Shown: piece after piece, positions 24,586 to 32,803 of the stretch
Numbering within the stretch: the first letter of the stretch is position 1
Layout of the letters: each line of letters starts with the position of its first letter
From: a virus
Length of the DNA stretch: 32,803 bases
Reading direction: 5' to 3' (one strand)
IMG/VR virus record: IMGVR_UViG_3300027851_000082
Span: 1-32,803 of that record
Translations under genes and position numbers: made by a program
Notes under the pieces: generated by a model
Databases searched by the model: none
Told to the model about the DNA's origin: nothing
The model's input: the letters and a program-made list of their open reading frames with translations, nothing else

Positions 24586-25428
24586 TCACGATTTCCCCCT
24601 GGCCGCGAGTCGCGCTGCAGACGCCGCGATGGCCGCCTGCACGTTGGCCGGCAGGCGCTGCTGGGCGGTGCGCTGCACAGCAGCTTCGAAGCCATAGCGA
24701 GGCTGATACGTGGTTGAGCGCACGAAGACGAAGACCAGCGCAGCCGCACGCACGAAATACTCGCGCTGGTAGATCCCCGCTTGCTTCTTGCCGCCGGGAG
24801 GGATCACGAAGTAGCGTCCCCCAGCGCGCTTCACTGCGGCTCTGCGCTTCGCTGGGTCAGTGCTCAAGCTGCGGTTGTGGCCCGCGGTCAGCTCGGTCCC
24901 GAGCTGGCTCAAGATCTGGTTCACCTGCCCCCGGCTCACGTTGCCGTAGGCATCCAGGCGCGCACCCGCTGCAGGCACCACCTGCCACCCCCTCGGCATA
25001 GCACCCTTGGCCTGCAATGCCAGCTCCAGGCGCTTCAAACGACGCGCCCCACCCACCACCTGCGGCATGAGGTATTCGGTGGCTGGCGTGCCCTTCCTGG
25101 TGACCCCTGAAGCATCCTTGACGAAGACATCGGCCGACAGGTAGCCTGACTCCACCAAGCGCCCGTCGAACGGGTCATTCGGGTTGGGCAGATTGCGCAC
25201 ACCCGCAGCCGCCTCGGTGCCCGTAGCGGTCTTCACGCGCACGCTGTTGCGGGTGTAGGGCGTGGGCCTGTCCAGATCCACGGACATGCGCGCCACGGCC
25301 GCATCCTTGGCCTCGATGGCCGTGCGCGTCAACGCCGTGGCCAGCGCCGAATTGATGCGCCGGTCGCTCATGCCCGTGAGCAGGTTCTTGACCCCTGCCA
25401 AGCCTTCGATCTTGAAGTCGACCTTCAC
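24586..25428 (-). CDS. gpZ-like minor tail protein, 280 aa
   Basis: The pattern resembles the minor tail protein Z family. The N-terminal part has INSALATALTRTAIEAKDAA (about 25-45) and DRPTPYTRNSVRVKTA (about 53-68). The middle has KGTPATEYLMPQVVGGARR and AYGNVSRGQVNQILSQL. Toward the end come RYFVIPPGGKKQAGIYQR and the hydrophobic strand AALVFVFVRS. Lambda Z (192 residues) joins tail to head. Here the gene lies far from the tail module, directly after the helicase (GTGA overlap at 25425-25428), which is odd. It may be relocated or a related protein with another job. Confidence 0.6.
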   Translation of the reverse strand: MKVDFKIEGLAGVKNLLTGMSDRRINSALATALTRTAIEAKDAAVARMSVDLDRPTPYTRNSVRVKTATGTEAAAGVRNLPNPNDPFDGRLVESGYLSADVFVKDASGVTRKGTPATEYLMPQVVGGARRLKRLELALQAKGAMPRGWQVVPAAGARLDAYGNVSRGQVNQILSQLGTELTAGHNRSLSTDPAKRRAAVKRAGGRYFVIPPGGKKQAGIYQREYFVRAAALVFVFVRSTTYQPRYGFEAAVQRTAQQRLPANVQAAIAASAARLAARGKS

Positions 25429-27911: not shown

Positions 27912-28102
27912 GGCGGTGCCCTCGCATCACCCAGGGGCACGATGCGCACCCTGGTGTGGCGGGCCAGAAAGGCCCCCACCTTGCGCTCATCAGGCTGCAT
28001 GCGCATCACTTGCGCCACGAAGCACAAGGCGCACAGCCACCAACGCACCCACAGCGGCACCTTGATTACCACGGCATAGAGCCGCGAGACATCACCAGCC
28101 AT
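27908..28102 (-). CDS. Small membrane protein, 64 aa
   Basis: ATG 28102 has GAGGTG five bases upstream. One hydrophobic helix (about 16-33, PLWVRWWLCALCFVAQVM) contains two Trp and two Cys, followed by a basic tail. The stop overlaps the next ATG. The family is unknown; inner-membrane location is predicted. Its upstream region is repeat A, which carries the promoter of the opposing gene. Confidence 0.65.
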   Translation of the reverse strand: MAGDVSRLYAVVIKVPLWVRWWLCALCFVAQVMRMQPDERKVGAFLARHTRVRIVPLGDARAPP

Positions 28103-28115
28103 GGCACACCTCGCA

Positions 28116-28148
28116 CGGAATGGGCGGGCGCCCTGCCTGCGTTACGCT
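28116..28148 (+). promoter_or_regulatory. Moron promoter A for the BssS-like gene
   Basis: The -10-like TACGCT lies at 28143-28148, with the conserved GGAATGGGCGG block about 17-20 bases upstream and GGGCGCCC dyad DNA between. It matches promoter B near 28.65 kb in sequence. The distance from the -10 to the start codon (41 bases) is the same as in B. The -35 is not consensus, so an activator or another sigma factor may be needed. Confidence 0.45.
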
Positions 28149-28188
28149 GGAGGCTCCAACACCAACCCAGCCACACAGGAGGGCACCC

Positions 28189-28431
28189 ATGGCAATGGAA
28201 TTCGACGTACTCACCCGCGGCCTCTTTGAAATCAAGACCCTGGGCGACAACAAGCAGCGCGAAGACTTCATCCTGCTCACGCTGCGCTACCAGCACTTTC
28301 CGGGCGGGGAACATCGCTCCCACCCGCCGCTGTTTCTGTCTGCCGATGCGGCTCGCAATCTGGCGATGGCGCTGCTCCAAAAAGCCGATGAGCTAGCGCC
28401 ACAGACTCCCCAACATAAATCGCCGAACTGA
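28189..28431 (+). CDS. BssS-like small regulator, 80 aa, opposing orientation
   Basis: AGGAGG precedes the ATG at 28189 on the plus strand, against the direction of the flanking operon. The product has a strand, EDFILLTLRYQHF (about 25-37), then LFLSADAARNLAMALLQKAD (about 49-68). This resembles the two blocks of E. coli BssS, LMLRLHYQ and LWLTTDVARQFISIL. BssS-type proteins are small regulators of biofilm and signal metabolism, often carried by prophages. With its own promoter it looks like a lysogenic-conversion gene. The family call is by eye and moderate. Confidence 0.6.
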   Translation: MAMEFDVLTRGLFEIKTLGDNKQREDFILLTLRYQHFPGGEHRSHPPLFLSADAARNLAMALLQKADELAPQTPQHKSPN

Positions 28432-28537
28432 AACCCACCTCAGGCCCCTTGATCGACATCGAGATAGTCACAGGGGCCTTGCTGCGGTGAGCGCGGCGCA
28501 GCAGGGCAATGAAGTCGCTCAGGTCTTCACGTCGCAT
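28277..28537 (-). CDS. Doubtful minus-strand ORF, antisense to the BssS-like gene
   Basis: The ATG at 28537 overlaps the stop of a 31-codon ORF and has GGGGGT upstream. The first 36 residues (RREDLSDFIALLRRAHRSKA onward) look protein-like and fill the space right of the BssS-like gene. The remainder is the antisense of that gene. It may be a true small gene of the minus operon that lost its end when the opposing gene was inserted, or it may be noise. Confidence 0.3.
   Translation of the reverse strand: MRREDLSDFIALLRRAHRSKAPVTISMSIKGPEVGFSSAIYVGESVALAHRLFGAAPSPDCEPHRQTETAAGGSDVPRPESAGSAA
28442..28479 (+). terminator. Inverted repeat after the BssS-like gene
   Basis: AGGCCCCT and AGGGGCCT (eight-base perfect arms) are separated by 22 bases and start ten bases after the BssS-like stop. 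There is no T-run, so it is at best a weak or Rho-assisted terminator limiting opposing transcription. Confidence 0.3.
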
Positions 28538-28622
28538 CACTACCCCCGAAGGGTGGGGCTACATCTGCCCGGCACAGTTCCGACATCTGGTGCATGACCA
28601 GCAGCACCGTGTCACGCCGCAT
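28527..28622 (-). CDS. Possible 31-aa leader-type ORF
   Basis: ATG 28622 has GAGGTG six bases upstream. The product begins MRRDTVLLVMHQMSELCRAD and its TGA overlaps the next ATG by an ATG-five-base-TGA junction typical of this operon. The start region is an exact copy of the junction after cro. It is too short to judge by composition. Confidence 0.3.
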   Translation of the reverse strand: MRRDTVLLVMHQMSELCRADVAPPFGGSDAT

Positions 28623-28630
28623 CGCGCACC
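28612..28630 (-). repeat. 19-bp direct repeat, left copy
   Basis: This is identical to 29412-29430, exactly 800 bases away. The two copies bracket the plus-strand zinc-motif gene and its promoter. Each copy spans a minus-strand start codon with the following bases cggcgtga. Confidence 0.8.
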
Positions 28631-28635
28631 TCGCC

Positions 28636-28668
28636 ATTGAATGGGCGGCCCATCCGCTTCGCTACGAT
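28636..28668 (+). promoter_or_regulatory. Moron promoter B for the zinc-motif gene
   Basis: TACGAT at 28663-28668 is the -10 candidate. TTGAATGGGCGG upstream corresponds to the conserved block of promoter A. A perfect dyad, ATGGGC-G-GCCCAT, covers 28641-28653, where a -35 or an operator would be. The leader to the ATG at 28709 is the same length as in A and shares GGAG.CTC and CAACC runs. Confidence 0.45.
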
Positions 28669-28681
28669 GGAGACTCTCACA

Positions 28682-29422
28682 TCAACCACCATTGCGAAGG
28701 GACGGGCCATGGACTTTCACATCCTGCTGGCCAGCATCAACAGCGCCCGCCAGCTTGGCAGCGCCCTCATCGCGGAGCGCGATGGCATAAAAGCGGCGGC
28801 CATCCAGATCGATCTCTCGGAAAAACTCATCCAGGCTCAATCCCAGATCTCGGAGGTACTCGCGGCCATCATCAGCAAAGATGCGGCGCTCTCGGTCCTT
28901 ACCGAACGCATACGCGAGCTGGAGGCCAGTCAAAGCGAGCGAGCTCGTTATCAGCTTGCAAAACTGGGCACTGTCGGGGAGTTCTTCGCCTATCAACTGC
29001 GCCCGGCTGGCGAATTGAGCGAGCGCACTGATGAGCCCGCCCACTTCCTTTGCCAGCCGTGCTTCGATGCCGGCAAGAAGGGCGTTTTGCGCGTCACACC
29101 CACCTATGCCTTCTGCCCGCTGTGCAAGCTCAACATGCAGGTCGGAGCAATCCCCAGCAGCCCCCCCCGGCAAGTCTCTCGTGGCCTGGGCTTCACCCGA
29201 GACTGGTGAAGCCTCAATCACATCGATGAAGCGCACCGGGCCGACCTTCGTCATTCTCGCAGCACGCCTCGCTAAAGCAGCCCCTGCCGCAGCCCTGCGC
29301 CGCCAGGGCAACATGGCCTTCCTACGTCGAACCTGGCGCACGATCCACACCGTCGGCACAGACAGCCGGAATCCTTTCGCCTGGACGTCAACCCCAGGCG
29401 TCAACAATCGCTCACGCCGCAT
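28682..29422 (-). CDS. Minus-strand ORF after cro, probably real only at its 5' end
   Basis: The ATG at 29422 lies inside the last codons of cro, an 11-base overlap, so it should be translated after cro. Residues 1-70 (29422 to about 29210) are very basic and plausible, with segments such as FRLSVPTVWIVRQVRRRKAM. From 29209 on the frame is antisense to the zinc-motif gene and is probably accidental. The original gene may have been cut by insertion of that cassette. No family is recognised. Confidence 0.3.
   Translation of the reverse strand: MRRERLLTPGVDVQAKGFRLSVPTVWIVRQVRRRKAMLPWRRRAAAGAALARRAARMTKVGPVRFIDVIEASPVSGEAQATRDLPGGAAGDCSDLHVELAQRAEGIGGCDAQNALLAGIEARLAKEVGGLISALAQFASRAQLIGEELPDSAQFCKLITSSLALTGLQLAYAFGKDRERRIFADDGREYLRDLGLSLDEFFREIDLDGRRFYAIALRDEGAAKLAGAVDAGQQDVKVHGPSLRNGG
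28709..29209 (+). CDS. Helical protein with C-terminal CxxC pairs, 166 aa, opposing orientation
   Basis: Residues 1-110 are long helices with heptad character (IQAQSQISEVLAAIISKDAA near 41-60). A zinc-ribbon-like part follows: CQPC at 115-118 and CPLC at 136-139. The codons are clearly coding on the plus strand. It starts at ATG 28709 with a GAAGGGA ribosome site and follows promoter B. Proteins with this coiled-coil plus CxxC/CxxC layout occur in other prophages without known function. The opposing direction and private promoter fit a moron expressed from the prophage. The 200-base stretch to 29411 has no other plus-strand gene and no clear terminator. Confidence 0.8.
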   Translation: MDFHILLASINSARQLGSALIAERDGIKAAAIQIDLSEKLIQAQSQISEVLAAIISKDAALSVLTERIRELEASQSERARYQLAKLGTVGEFFAYQLRPAGELSERTDEPAHFLCQPCFDAGKKGVLRVTPTYAFCPLCKLNMQVGAIPSSPPRQVSRGLGFTRDW

Positions 29423-29430
29423 CGCGCACC
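29412..29430 (-). repeat. 19-bp direct repeat, right copy
   Basis: This exact copy of 28612-28630 includes the cro stop codon and the overlapping start of the next frame. It probably marks the boundary of a duplicated or inserted segment. Confidence 0.8.
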
Positions 29431-29705
29431 CCTTCGGCCTGCGCCGCCTGGCCATCCGAGGACACAACCACATCCAGCAGCGGCCGGCCATCGGGGTGCC
29501 ATGGCCATTCAGGGTCAGGCACGCGCACCCAGCGCGCATCGGGGCACACGACTTCGCACGCCCATCGCCCCTCGCTGCCGCGCTCGATCGACGGGCCCCA
29601 CTTCGATGGGATGCCACGCTTTCGCCACTCGATCACCGAGGGCGATTTGCAGCCAGTCCACCGCGCGACAACGGCCGGCCCGCCAAGTTCCGAAATGAGG
29701 TCCAT
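29412..29705 (-). CDS. Cro/YdaS-like regulator, 97 aa
   Basis: The first 40 residues form a helix-turn-helix of the Cro/YdaS kind (ISELGGPAVVARWTGCKSPS, about 4-23). The segment RWACEVVCPDARWVRVPDP, characteristic of prophage Cro-type proteins in betaproteobacteria, lies at about 47-65. It diverges from the repressor across the three operators and is the first gene of the lytic operon from P_R. The predicted start of transcription falls on or next to the ATG, so its message appears leaderless. It should repress the lysogenic promoter and favour lytic growth. Confidence 0.82.
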   Translation of the reverse strand: MDLISELGGPAVVARWTGCKSPSVIEWRKRGIPSKWGPSIERGSEGRWACEVVCPDARWVRVPDPEWPWHPDGRPLLDVVVSSDGQAAQAEGVRDAA

Positions 29706-29711
29706 TTCGGC

Positions 29712-29740
29712 ATGCTAGGTGTCCCTAGCATTTTTGTAAA
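29712..29740 (-). promoter_or_regulatory. P_R, lytic promoter for cro and the minus operon
   Basis: On the minus strand TTTACA (29740-29735) and TAGCAT (29717-29712) are 17 bases apart. It matches P_L at 25 of 29 positions. Six bases separate the -10 from the cro ATG. The operator at 29713-29730 covers the spacer and -10, so bound repressor should block it. Confidence 0.85.
29713..29730. promoter_or_regulatory. Operator OR1-like
   Basis: The arms TGCTAGG and CCTAGCA are perfect, with a four-base centre. The same arms recur at 30970-30987. It overlaps P_R. Confidence 0.85.
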
Positions 29741-29753
29741 GGCATGCCTAGCA
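29736..29753. promoter_or_regulatory. Operator OR2-like
   Basis: The right arm CCTAGCA is perfect and the left arm is degenerate (AGG kept). Its centre is 23 bases from OR1. It lies where a repressor could contact polymerase at the lysogenic promoter. Confidence 0.6.
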
Positions 29754-29760
29754 GTTCGGT

Positions 29761-29778
29761 GGGTAGGCTAACCTAATG
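29761..29778. promoter_or_regulatory. Operator OR3-like
   Basis: TAGG-ctaa-CCTA keeps the core of the operator. Its centre is 25 bases from OR2. It covers the -10 of the lysogenic promoter and the repressor start codon, so binding should shut repressor synthesis off. Confidence 0.6.
29764..29769 (+). promoter_or_regulatory. P_RM -10 for the repressor gene
   Basis: TAGGCT lies six bases before the repressor ATG. No good -35 is found at 16-18 bases, as in lambda P_RM, which needs activator repressor bound next to it. The transcript would be leaderless. Confidence 0.45.
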
Positions 29779-30255
29779 GAGACACTTGCAGACCGCCTCA
29801 ACCGGGCGATGAAACACCGAAAGGTCACGAAGAAAGCCGACCTGGCGCGAGCCTGTGGCGTCAAAAGCGCTTCTGTCGCCGACTGGTTCAACGGCGAAAC
29901 CAAAAGCCTGGGCGACAAAGCCGCGCGGGCCGCAGCCAAGTTCTTCCGGTGCTCGCGGGACTGGATTGGCTCAGGCGTGGGCCAGCCAAACTGGGAGGAC
30001 GAACCGGCATCGCAAGCGGCTGAAGAGGCCGTCAAGCCTTACACCACCCCGCCGCGGACGCTCCCCGTGCACGAACTGGTCGAGCAACTGAGCCAGCTGC
30101 TGGAAAAGCTCGACAAGGCCGACAGACAAGCCGCCGCCGAAGACCTCACCTCATTGAGCAGAAGCCCCGACAGCCGCATCGCGCGCGACGACCTAACCCG
30201 CACCCTTGGTGGCACCCCACCCGCAACGCAGCAGACCAAACGCACCGGCACGTAG
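29776..30255 (+). CDS. HTH repressor lacking a peptidase domain, 159 aa
   Basis: Residues 1-65 form an XRE-type helix-turn-helix domain (KADLARACGVKSASVADWFN, about 20-39). The rest is hydrophilic, with a helical, possibly dimerising segment at about 85-110 (VHELVEQLSQLLEKLDKADR). There is no S24/LexA-type Ala-Gly cleavage site or Ser/Lys dyad. The divergent position across three operators marks it as the CI-equivalent. Lambda CI has 237 residues, so the C-terminal domain for oligomerisation and RecA-induced cleavage is missing. No ribosome site precedes the ATG, consistent with leaderless translation. The next 116 bases to 30371 are GC-rich with imperfect hairpins and no gene. Confidence 0.8.
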   Translation: METLADRLNRAMKHRKVTKKADLARACGVKSASVADWFNGETKSLGDKAARAAAKFFRCSRDWIGSGVGQPNWEDEPASQAAEEAVKPYTTPPRTLPVHELVEQLSQLLEKLDKADRQAAAEDLTSLSRSPDSRIARDDLTRTLGGTPPATQQTKRTGT

Positions 30256-30371
30256 AGCGGGGGGCCGAACTTTACAATCTGGTCGACCTTCGCGCGGCTC
30301 GCCTGAGGAGGGGCGACTCCCGAGACGCGCGGGGGGTGCTTGCCGAAGAATTCACAGGGGAGTGACCGGAA

Positions 30372-30809
30372 ATGAAAAAAATGAATGCGGCCCTTTGGGC
30401 CATCGGCGCCATCGTCACGGCCGGCGCCGCCTACGGCTACGTTCGGTGGTCCGACCAGCAAGAGTTCGATCTGCGATCAGCGCCGCTCGTGCGCGCCCTG
30501 AAGGATCCCGACACTGTGAAGTTCCGGGACTGGAAGATCAGGGGCCCGAACCTGTGCGGCGAAGTCAACTCCAAAGGTAGCGCCGGCGGGTATGTGGGCT
30601 TCAAGCGCTTCATCTCTCACCCAGGTGGGTACGCCATCGAGAGCGAAACGGTCGAGCCCTTCACCAGCGGTCAGCGAGACACATCGGACATCATCGCCGA
30701 CCTAGACCTTCAGATCGCCTTCATGAAGACACACGATCACCGCAAGCCCACCGGCGAGGAACTGCTCGCCCTGCGGTTCGACTCCCTCTGGAAGGCCAAC
30801 TGCCAGTAG
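30372..30809 (+). CDS. Membrane-anchored periplasmic protein in the rex position, 145 aa
   Basis: AGGGGAG lies eleven bases upstream of the ATG. An N-terminal hydrophobic segment (about 5-24) with two lysines before it predicts membrane insertion or an uncleaved signal. The soluble part begins with LVRALKDPDTVKFRDWKI (about 39-56) and contains LCGEVNSKGSAGGYVGFKRF (about 61-80), a pattern shared with small exported bacterial proteins. Two Cys (62 and 144) could pair. It lies between repressor and P_L/O_L, where lambda carries rexA/rexB, so it may be expressed in lysogens. Function is unknown; superinfection exclusion is a guess. A weak hairpin (30809-30823) follows the stop, and 30824-30923 holds no visible gene. 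Confidence 0.8.
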   Translation: MKKMNAALWAIGAIVTAGAAYGYVRWSDQQEFDLRSAPLVRALKDPDTVKFRDWKIRGPNLCGEVNSKGSAGGYVGFKRFISHPGGYAIESETVEPFTSGQRDTSDIIADLDLQIAFMKTHDHRKPTGEELLALRFDSLWKANCQ

Positions 30810-30923
30810 GCGGCACAACCGCCCTGCAGCCGGCATACGGGTCGCCAATCGGCCCAACCCTCCCACCTCATGCGCCACCGCAAAAGCGTCAGCCTGCCCG
30901 GCCTGCGCACCAGTGTGGCAAAA

Positions 30924-30941
30924 AAGTAGGGAAACCTAGTC
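30924..30941. promoter_or_regulatory. Operator OL3-like
   Basis: TAGG-gaaa-CCTA core with partial outer arms. Its centre is 21 bases from the next operator. Confidence 0.5.
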
Positions 30942-30944
30942 ATT

Positions 30945-30962
30945 AGCTAGGTATACCTATTG
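30945..30962. promoter_or_regulatory. Operator OL2-like
   Basis: The core TAGGTATACCTA is a perfect 12-base palindrome. It touches the -35 of P_L. Confidence 0.75.
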
Positions 30963-30988
30963 ACCAAAATGCTAGGTACGCCTAGCAT
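30960..30988 (+). promoter_or_regulatory. P_L, early promoter for the plus-strand operon
   Basis: TTGACC (30960-30965) and TAGCAT (30983-30988) are 17 bases apart, close to sigma-70 consensus at the -35. The expected start of transcription is about 30995. Repressor on OL1 and OL2 would block it. Confidence 0.88.
30970..30987. promoter_or_regulatory. Operator OL1-like
   Basis: Perfect TGCTAGG/CCTAGCA arms, the same as OR1. It overlaps the P_L spacer and -10. Confidence 0.85.
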
Positions 30989-30990
30989 TT

Positions 30991-31039
30991 GCTCCGTCGC
31001 CTTGAAAGCCGCCCCACCGGGGCAACAAGGCGAGGGAGC
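30991..31039 (+). promoter_or_regulatory. Long stem-loop in the P_L leader
   Basis: Bases 30991-31004 pair with 31026-31039 (13 of 14 positions). A second hairpin, GCCCC-acc-GGGGC, lies inside (31011-31023). The right arm contains the GGGAG ribosome site of the first gene. The P_L transcript is predicted to start inside the left arm, so only read-through RNA would form the full stem. Confidence 0.65.
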
Positions 31040-31044
31040 AGCAG

Positions 31045-31224
31045 GTGAAATACACCACCACCCAGCTGGCCACCATGGCCACCACCGCCCTGCAGGCCAA
31101 AGCGCGCAACGATGCCCGCTACCTGCAACTGGTGCTGCAGCTCGCGCTGCGCACGGGCCTTGCGCCCATCCAAGTCGAACAGAACATCCTGGCCATGGCT
31201 CAGCGCGCAGGGGCCGCAGCATGA
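31045..31224 (+). CDS. First gene of P_L operon, helical protein, 59 aa
   Basis: The GTG at 31045 is preceded by GGGAG at six bases, inside the leader hairpin. The product is helical (TQLATMATTALQAKARNDAR early, then YLQLVLQLALRTGLAPIQVE) without a true membrane segment. The stop overlaps the next ATG (ATGA). This is the position of lambda N, but the protein is not Arg-rich at the N-terminus and no nut/boxA was found, so an antiterminator role is not supported. Confidence 0.7.
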   Translation: MKYTTTQLATMATTALQAKARNDARYLQLVLQLALRTGLAPIQVEQNILAMAQRAGAAA

Positions 31225-31418
31225 GCCGCGTCACGCACATGAGCAACGGCAACGGCGCGGTGCTGTCGCTGGAACTGGTGTGGCTCCGCTGGGGAGGCGG
31301 CGCCACACCCGGCAAGACCCACGTCTTCGTGGCCGGCCCAATCACCTTCATGTCTATCTCGACGCAATGCGTCGTTGACGACTTCGGCACCCTGGTGCCG
31401 GTGGAGGCCGCGCTGTGA
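31221..31418 (+). CDS. Small beta-rich protein, 65 aa
   Basis: The ATG at 31221 overlaps the previous stop (ATGA), indicating coupled translation. The sequence is strand-rich, with LSLELVWLRWGGG and VFVAGPITFMSIS, and ends at TGA 31418, 14 bases before the convergent gene's stop. No family is recognised. It belongs to the early P_L operon. Confidence 0.65.
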   Translation: MSRVTHMSNGNGAVLSLELVWLRWGGGATPGKTHVFVAGPITFMSISTQCVVDDFGTLVPVEAAL

Positions 31419-31432
31419 AATCGCGCACTCTT

Positions 31433-31843
31433 TCAACGCCGCGGCAACATGGCGAGCAATGCCGCGATGGTGGCCTTGATGGCCCGCACGTCCGTGTAGT
31501 GGGGATGGCCGCTTGCGCCGCGGGCCTGGCACTGGCTGGCGCACTCTTGATGCCGCTGTATGGCACGGCACACGCGCTGCCGCTGCAGCCAGCCCAGGTG
31601 CGGGCGCAGGCGGTCGAGCTCGTCCCGCGTGGGCTCGGTGCGGGTCATGGGCGTGGGGTTCTCGAGCTGGCGCAGCAGGCGCTTGCGCACGGGGTCGACA
31701 GCCTCGTTGTATTCCTTGCGGCGCTCCCGGCCCAACTGCAGGCGGTGCCCGATCAACAGGCCAAGCGGGCCGAACACGGCACCACCAGCCAAGAATGGCC
31801 GCAGGCCATCCTCAATGAGCTGAGCGATTGGGTGAAGGTCCAT
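31433..31843 (-). CDS. Membrane-anchored protein on the opposite strand, 136 aa
   Basis: The ATG at 31843 has GAGG ten bases upstream. The N-terminus has one hydrophobic segment (about 15-32, RPFLAGGAVFGPLGLLIG). A basic cytoplasmic-type helix, RLQLGRERRKEYNEAVDPVR, follows, and then a long charged C-terminus with three Cys-containing turns. Composition is far more protein-like than the plus frame across it. It converges with the 65-residue gene and diverges, with 12 bases of overlap at the starts, from the next one. It may be a further moron; no promoter was found. Confidence 0.6.
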   Translation of the reverse strand: MDLHPIAQLIEDGLRPFLAGGAVFGPLGLLIGHRLQLGRERRKEYNEAVDPVRKRLLRQLENPTPMTRTEPTRDELDRLRPHLGWLQRQRVCRAIQRHQECASQCQARGASGHPHYTDVRAIKATIAALLAMLPRR

Positions 31844-32050
31844 CTGCGCGCCTCTGCATTTGTGTGGACGGCGTTGGTGATCGAACACCTCGCGCTGCTG
31901 TTCATCGTCTACAAGGCCCTGAACGCATTCGACCGACAGGGCTGGAAATACTGCAACGCCATGATAGAGGCGGCCGACTGGCAACGGCGCTACTACCGCC
32001 TGCACGCCAGGTTCATGCGCCGCGTTGCGTCCACCCGGGTGGAGGACTGA
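31832..32050 (+). CDS. Small membrane protein, 72 aa
   Basis: The same plus frame extends back to 31415, but that part is antisense to the 136-residue gene, so I place the start at GTG 31832; it has only weak GAG upstream. One hydrophobic helix (about 9-25, AFVWTALVIEHLALLFIVYK) precedes an aromatic, basic C-terminus (DWQRRYYRLHARFMRR near 50-65). GGAGGA in its last codons serves the next gene. Function is unknown; early P_L operon. Confidence 0.5.
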   Translation: MKVHLRASAFVWTALVIEHLALLFIVYKALNAFDRQGWKYCNAMIEAADWQRRYYRLHARFMRRVASTRVED

Positions 32051-32053
32051 CCC

Positions 32054-32200
32054 ATGTGGCTGTTCACCCCCGCCCGCCGGGCAATCACTCTGGTGATTGC
32101 CACCGCGGCCCTGGCCCTCATCAGCGCCGGCGGCATCGTTGCCGGCGTGTTGATCCTGGGCACCGATCGCCTGGTCGGCGGCGGCCCCGCGCTGCACTGA
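32054..32200 (+). CDS. Small single-pass membrane protein, 48 aa
   Basis: GGAGGA at 32041-32046 precedes the ATG. A basic N-terminus (TPARRA) is followed by one strongly hydrophobic helix (about 11-36). It ends four bases after an Ala-Leu-His C-terminus in a tight operon. Too small for a family call. Confidence 0.6.
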   Translation: MWLFTPARRAITLVIATAALALISAGGIVAGVLILGTDRLVGGGPALH

Positions 32201-32209
32201 GGCCGCGCC

Positions 32210-32449
32210 ATGGCAGCACTCGACCACGTGATCCGCATCGAGCGCGAGGGCACCGCCACGCGCTGGGTGCAGACCATCGCCCGCAGCGACGACATGGGCT
32301 GCACCGTCACCCGGCACTTTGACCAGGCGCGCCGCATGACCGACGTCACCGCGCAGCGCCACGCCGCCCGCCTGCAGGCGCTGCTGGGCAAAACGCTGGG
32401 CACGCTCAGCGCAGCACCAGTTGAGGAGGCGAAGACATGCACCGCCTGA
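32210..32449 (+). CDS. Hypothetical early protein, 79 aa
   Basis: GAGG lies seven bases before ATG 32210. The product is mixed alpha/beta with a strand HVIRIEREGTATRWVQTIAR (about 6-25) and a basic helix later. Its end overlaps the next start by 13 bases. No family is recognised. Confidence 0.65.
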   Translation: MAALDHVIRIEREGTATRWVQTIARSDDMGCTVTRHFDQARRMTDVTAQRHAARLQALLGKTLGTLSAAPVEEAKTCTA

Positions 32450-32547
32450 TCACCCTCGCCCTGCTGATCGCGGCCGTGCTGCTGCTCGCATCGGCCGCGG
32501 CCCACGCCACCACCCCGCCTGTCACCCATCAATGGAGGCATTCATGA
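32437..32547 (+). CDS. Very small exported or membrane peptide, 36 aa
   Basis: GAGGAGG precedes the ATG at 32437. The peptide is basically one hydrophobic helix (about 4-20) ending in ASAAAHA, which resembles a signal-peptidase site. It overlaps both neighbours (13 bases; ATGA). This is typical of phage operon filler genes, and function is unknown. Confidence 0.5.
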   Translation: MHRLITLALLIAAVLLLASAAAHATTPPVTHQWRHS

Positions 32548-32803
32548 TCTTCGCAACCAAGGCCGTTTTTGCAGACGGCACCAAGCAAGACATCGACATC
32601 CCGGCACCCAATTGGCACGCAGCCATGGAGCGCGCCGCTGAGTTGGCCGGTAAGACCCCGCAGCGCATCAGCGCCCGGCCCCTGCACGGCTTCCGCCCCG
32701 TGGTGGTATGCCAGGCCCCGCCCGAGCACCGCGCCACGCCGCTCGATCAAGAGACGGTGATCACCCCGGTCGATCTGGACGCCCTGCACGCCTATGACCA
32801 AGC
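32544..32803 (+). CDS. Hypothetical early protein, cut by window edge
   Basis: The ATG at 32544 overlaps the previous stop (ATGA), with GGAG seven bases upstream. At least 86 residues are visible, starting MIFATKAVFADGTKQDIDIP, with a later block, HGFRPVVVCQAPPEH. The C-terminal end is outside the window. No family is recognised. Confidence 0.6.
   Translation, partial: MIFATKAVFADGTKQDIDIPAPNWHAAMERAAELAGKTPQRISARPLHGFRPVVVCQAPPEHRATPLDQETVITPVDLDALHAYDQ

Follow-up and report, generated by a model that had tools for sequence, protein, structure and literature searches.

The window (the whole stretch of viral DNA that was analysed, 32,803 nucleotides) very probably carries, to judge from its sequence, the immunity region of a temperate siphovirus, in which six TAGG-N4-CCTA operators would be contested by a YdaS/P22-type Cro and a short repressor of the P22 c2/DicA type. 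The window is of the temperate siphovirus type, and the switch lies near its right end. The order of genes and sites was as in lambda (cro, OR, repressor, one gene, OL and pL), with pL located beyond the repressor gene and reading in the repressor's direction. The minus strand carries, downstream of cro, all of the genes for a replication initiator, a DnaB-like helicase, a DNA methyltransferase, terminase, portal, head protease and tape measure proteins. Between the helicase and methyltransferase genes, where a tail gene would not be expected, was a match to a minor tail protein family (phrog_1924; 24586-25428, minus strand). The gene in the position of lambda rex (30372-30809, plus strand) codes for 145 amino acids, matches phrog_2320 (a family of unknown function), has a probable N-terminal membrane anchor and is a candidate for superinfection exclusion. 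The first candidate gene of the pL operon (31045-31224, plus strand; 59 amino acids) has a GTG start and produced no family match.

The initial annotation had described two triads of a TGCTAGG-N4-CCTAGCA operator, and all six sites were recovered at its coordinates, with centre-to-centre distances of 23 and 25 bp in the first triad and of 21 and 25 bp in the second. OR1 (29713-29730) is a perfect copy of the operator, lies between the -35 and -10 of pR and overlaps the pR -10; OL1 (30970-30987), also perfect, lies between the -35 and -10 of pL and overlaps the pL -10. OR2 (29736-29753) has the core AAGG-N4-CCTA, with one mismatch and a good right half, and OR3 (29761-29778) has the core TAGG-CTAA-CCTA, its end lying on the repressor start codon. 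The cores of OL3 (30924-30941) and OL2 (30945-30962) are TAGG-GAAA-CCTA and TAGG-TATA-CCTA, respectively, and OL2 extends into the pL -35. The perfect form occurred at only two of the six sites (those starting at 29713 and 30970), and the other four were weaker in the outer bases, with 9-10 of 14 positions matching. Common to all six was the core TAGG-N4-CCTA, exact in five and with one mismatch in one; the sites thus hold as palindromes, but their conserved part is the core and not the full 14-base arms. A search of viral contigs for the exact full-length operator returned 19 stretches, mostly lone sites without a triad, which also indicates that the outer bases are not the conserved part.

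Nine cores with up to one mismatch were found in the window, against 2.6 in shuffled sequences, and all six triad sites were among the nine. For exact cores, five were observed and 0.036 expected. A scattering of the same palindromes elsewhere, named by the initial annotation as an argument against its reading, was looked for in the window, and exact TAGG-N4-CCTA cores were confined to the triads, with none in the rest of the 32,803 bases. The degenerate outer bases of four sites are all that speaks for the inverted repeats being products of chance or composition; the window has two triads, not one of 1000 Markov-simulated windows had even one, and the same geometry is conserved in other phages. 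A chance origin was rejected on these grounds, and its probability is negligible.

A promoter scan of 29000-31800 returned only two sigma70-like promoters, pR (29712-29740, minus strand; TTTACA-17-TAGCAT) and pL (30960-30988, plus strand; TTGACC-17-TAGCAT), each matching the consensus at 9 of 12 positions with a 17-bp spacer. The two are identical at exactly 25 of 29 positions, as had been claimed, and the claim that the best site of each triad overlaps an early promoter also held, since the perfect operator sits between the hexamers of pR and of pL and runs into the -10. The proposed -10 of PRM, TAGGCT (29764-29769, plus strand), is inside OR3 and ends 6 nt before the repressor ATG. The N4 of OR3 began with [AC]T in all 24 nonredundant loci among the matches listed, compared with 4 of 96 other operators, which makes the sequence TAGG[AC]T, a plausible PRM -10; the extra constraint in OR3 can plausibly be read as a hidden promoter element. 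In lambda, the centre of OR2 lies about 42 bp before the repressor AUG. In the window the distance is about 31.5 bp, and the repressor start is about 12 bp closer to pR than in lambda, so that OR2 covers the -35 region of PRM. Because OR2 is about one helical turn closer to the repressor AUG, activation of PRM from OR2 in the lambda manner may not occur here, and any activation should differ.

The repressor (P0002; 29776-30255, plus strand; 159 amino acids) has an N-terminal HTH related to P22 c2 both by sequence and by the fold of the predicted model, of which the best fold match was P22 c2 bound to its operator. The model was confident only to about residue 70; a C-terminal helix was predicted at residues 98-126 with low confidence. 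Identity with DicA was rejected, as the match to NCBIfam DicA (PRK09706) was 26.7 bits, far under the cut-off of 101. No match to Peptidase_S24 was found in P0002, in contrast to its relative L023 (30.1 bits); L014 was just below the cut-off. Since the S24 domain is absent, lambda-type SOS induction by RecA-stimulated self-cleavage would not be expected.

The cro-like gene (P0001; 29412-29705, minus strand; 97 amino acids) codes for a YdaS/P22-Cro-like HTH protein and its start codon is 6 nt past the pR -10. The protein matched Pfam YdaS_toxin (PF15943) with 32.6 bits, above the cut-off of 30. Matches to P22_Cro in Pfam and to Cro 3bd1 in the PDB (E 0.024) were weak. In the first codons of cro (29690-29710, minus strand), the start codon is flanked by the arms of a perfect inverted repeat of 8 bases, CCGAAATG/CATTTCGG; the repeat would be shortened if the mRNA begins at the AUG.

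A search of viral contigs with the pL signature TAGG-N4-CCTATTGAC-N8/9-TAGG-N4-CCTA returned at least 120 stretches, which shows that the switch class is common. In at least 85 loci, some redundant, the OR triad adjoins the repressor and cro, and 24 distinct repressors at the 85% level were obtained from these among the matches listed. With allowed spacings of 22-26 bp (OR1-OR2), 23-26 bp (OR2-OR3) and 24-27 bp (OL1-OL2), the 24 distinct switches among the matches listed had OR2-OR3 at 25 bp in every case (24/24), OR1-OR2 at 22-25 bp and OL1-OL2 at 25 or 26 bp, the last being no independent test because the pL pattern preset it at 25-26 bp for most loci. The OR-to-OL distance ranged from 0.6 to 3.4 kb, and a third OL site was clear in only a few relatives. 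Both clusters recurred in the closest Cro relatives at almost unchanged positions; the more distant Cro relatives (L034-L046) had no TAGG sites before cro. Named phages with TAGG-N4-CCTA sites were Acinetobacter phages vB_AbaSI_1 and Ab1656-2 and Pseudomonas phage F_TK1718sp/PAK. Alcaligenes phage Piluca carried a weak repressor relative and none of these operators. A profile search of genome contigs with the Cro alignment returned no relative, and three genome-contig matches to the promoter plus perfect operator were rejected as chance-like, none having a second site and one being inside a non-switch gene. In L067 and L068, both strands carried the CCTATTGAC pL-type signature with two cores, at OR as well as at OL, which makes the two early promoters of these phages nearly interchangeable.

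The arrangement claimed to be lambda-like is supported by these results: Cro-like and repressor-like genes flank OR, the second triad overlaps a pL beyond the repressor, and layout and spacings recur in divergent phages. The term does not extend to SOS induction or to octamer looping through an S24 domain, which the repressor lacks. Repressors with and without S24 used the same operator core, and the C-terminal part of the repressor appears from this comparison to be exchangeable. The S24-type repressor of L023 (3194-3922, minus strand) reads GDELYP where a serine (GDSM.P) is usual, and it may have lost self-cleavage yet kept the domain.

In the subclass to which the window belongs (18 distinct switches among the matches listed, including the window), the cI start lay 11-15 bases from where the OR3 core begins, and at 12 bases in 14 of the 18. 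The cro start was 10-13 bases past the OR1 core in 17/18, and a simple test for a ribosome-binding site before cro was negative in 17/18. The spacing from -10 to AUG and the missing ribosome-binding sites suggest that cI and cro mRNAs are probably both leaderless in this subclass. Six Acinetobacter-type loci, in contrast, had cro 27-30 bases from the OR1 core with an AGGAG-type site, and the contrast argues for leaderless messages in the window's subclass. There is precedent in PY54, in which both cI and cro mRNAs are leaderless by RACE (PMC4488713), and in CP-933P, in which the repressor mRNA is leaderless (PMC8630535).

Co-variation between operator and repressor, which the initial annotation had proposed looking for in related prophages, appeared strong under column shuffling. 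The test placed repressor residues 31-32, at the start of the recognition helix and aligned with N32/V33 of P22 c2, among the columns best correlated with the base before TAGG. Serine or threonine at residue 31 went with C before TAGG in 6/6 repressors, and C was found with no other repressor. On the tree, the correlation came down to two independent changes only and could be explained by shared ancestry, so the association of this base with residues 31-32 is suggestive, no more than a hint.

A GC-rich hairpin (30997-31033, plus strand) was located early in the predicted pL transcript, near its 5' end. The 81-nt fold had z = -3.35, with none of 200 shuffles equally stable, and similar folds occurred in some relatives. 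At the same position, L023, L024, L029, L032 and L092 had a stem carrying an A-rich bulge of 7 bases on its 5' side, together with a small inner stem in which the paired bases co-vary; L014 and the window were looser. The region 28000-32803 gave no match in Rfam, and MAFFT produced no useful alignment of the leader hairpins. A strict descriptor of the hairpin fitted 4 of 24 relatives and missed the window itself, and for this reason no RNA element is claimed. Possible roles of the hairpin are translational control of the first pL gene or an action like that of the put RNA of HK022.

In the proposed mechanism, repressor bound to OR1 and OL1 would shut the pR and pL early operons in the lysogen, as the position of these sites suggests. 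Protein bound to OR3 would switch off repressor synthesis, because the proposed PRM -10 lies within OR3, whose end overlaps the repressor start codon. If Cro prefers OR3, an order of preference modelled on lambda and CP-933P, its binding would lead to the lytic state. Both regulators would be translated from mRNAs that begin at the AUG, as spacing and the missing ribosome-binding sites suggest. The missing S24 domain implies that induction would need an antirepressor or loss of the repressor. The two triads, about 1.2 kb apart, may be bridged by repressor oligomers.

A purely local repression of pL by the second triad, without triad-triad contact and with sites and regulators otherwise as described, has somewhat less than even chances. 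The repressor lacks the C-terminal domain that makes octamers of lambda CI, its predicted C-terminal helix is of low confidence, and the variable OR-OL distance among relatives also favours local action. Against this, PaaR2, the repressor of CP-933P, is short as well and forms octamers (PMC8630535), and, of the relatives reached through Cro, each of the five with TAGG operators had an OL cluster as well. Looping between OR and OL is therefore possible, with PaaR2 as the precedent for a short repressor. Much less credit is due to the reading in which a degraded prophage has the lambda-like layout without a working immunity switch, the 159-aa protein doing no more than regulate its own synthesis or serving as one member of a toxin pair of the YdaS type. 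The YdaS_toxin match of the Cro-like protein would fit it, as would a repressor without S24 when some relatives with the same operator have this domain. The phage nevertheless has long genes for replication, terminase, portal, head and tail and keeps pL under three operators, short repressors recur in many relatives, and work on CP-933P argues that YdaS is a Cro and not a toxin partner (PMC8630535), which together make this reading very improbable.

With the window taken as an immunity switch, it may tentatively be placed, at somewhat under even chances, in an immunity class, broad and unnamed, that spans phages of Acinetobacter, Pseudomonas and other Proteobacteria; its members would share a single operator core and a fixed geometry, and the C-terminal domains of their repressors would be exchangeable. 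Within the compact subclass, a single site, OR3, would serve as operator, supply the PRM -10 and lead up to the start codon; the two regulators would come from leaderless mRNAs, and the repressor would be unable to activate PRM from the lambda position. Such a class would supply an operator code that can be read across a large set of prophages not yet characterised, making immunity groups and repressor targets predictable from sequence. The compact leaderless subclass would be a natural test of a lambda-type decision with repressor synthesis, promoter and operator fully overlapping and no self-cleavage.

Lambda has three OR and three OL sites in the order cro-OR-cI-(rex)-OL-pL, with the best site between the -35 and -10 of each early promoter and a leaderless cI. 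The window differs from it in the operator, in a repressor without S24, in a YdaS-type Cro and in a cro that is probably leaderless. Phages vB_AbaSI_1, Ab1656-2 and F_TK1718sp/PAK resemble the window in having TAGG-N4-CCTA at OR and OL with similar spacing; the outer operator bases are mostly A/T in these Acinetobacter and Pseudomonas phage sites and GC in the window. Unlike the window, vB_AbaSI_1 and Ab1656-2 have annotated S24/LexA-type repressors, and cro is leadered in the Acinetobacter-type loci. DicA of the Qin prophage and P22 c2 were the best relatives of the repressor HTH in NCBIfam and in the PDB and fold comparison, respectively, and the DicA operator TTGTTAGTCATAACTAACAA (TTAG-N6-CTAA) is in the same register as the TTAGG-N4-CCTAA of many relatives (PMC3441716). 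No description of the TAGG-N4-CCTA operator class was found in the open-licence papers searched.

N15, phiKO2 and PY54 share with the window a divergent repressor and cro and three OR sites (one in PY54), and differ in their 16-bp TA-N10-TA operators and linear plasmid prophages (PMC4488713, PMC4997575). N15 and phiKO2 have two OL sites, the intergenic region of the telomere phages is 80-116 bp, and phiKO2 Cro binds OR3 only (PMC4488713, PMC4997575). CP-933P of E. coli O157:H7 has, like the window, a short repressor without sequence similarity to lambda CI, a YdaS-type Cro on the opposite strand, and repeats both in OR and, past the repressor operon, at pL; PaaR2 and YdaS both repress PR, PRM and PL (PMC8630535). 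This likeness is one of layout and published descriptions. In CP-933P the operator is built on GTTTAGTAA and a region of 97 bp holds four inverted repeats, whereas the window has three TAGG-N4-CCTA sites in 70 bp; with TGCTAGG half-sites instead of the GTTTAGTAA consensus, the window falls outside that operator class (PMC8630535). A leaderless cro is predicted in the window and not reported for CP-933P. The closest known systems are CP-933P (PaaR2/YdaS) and PY54 (leaderless cI and cro); the general type of switch is already known, and the compact, apparently leaderless design of the window is of more interest than the type itself.
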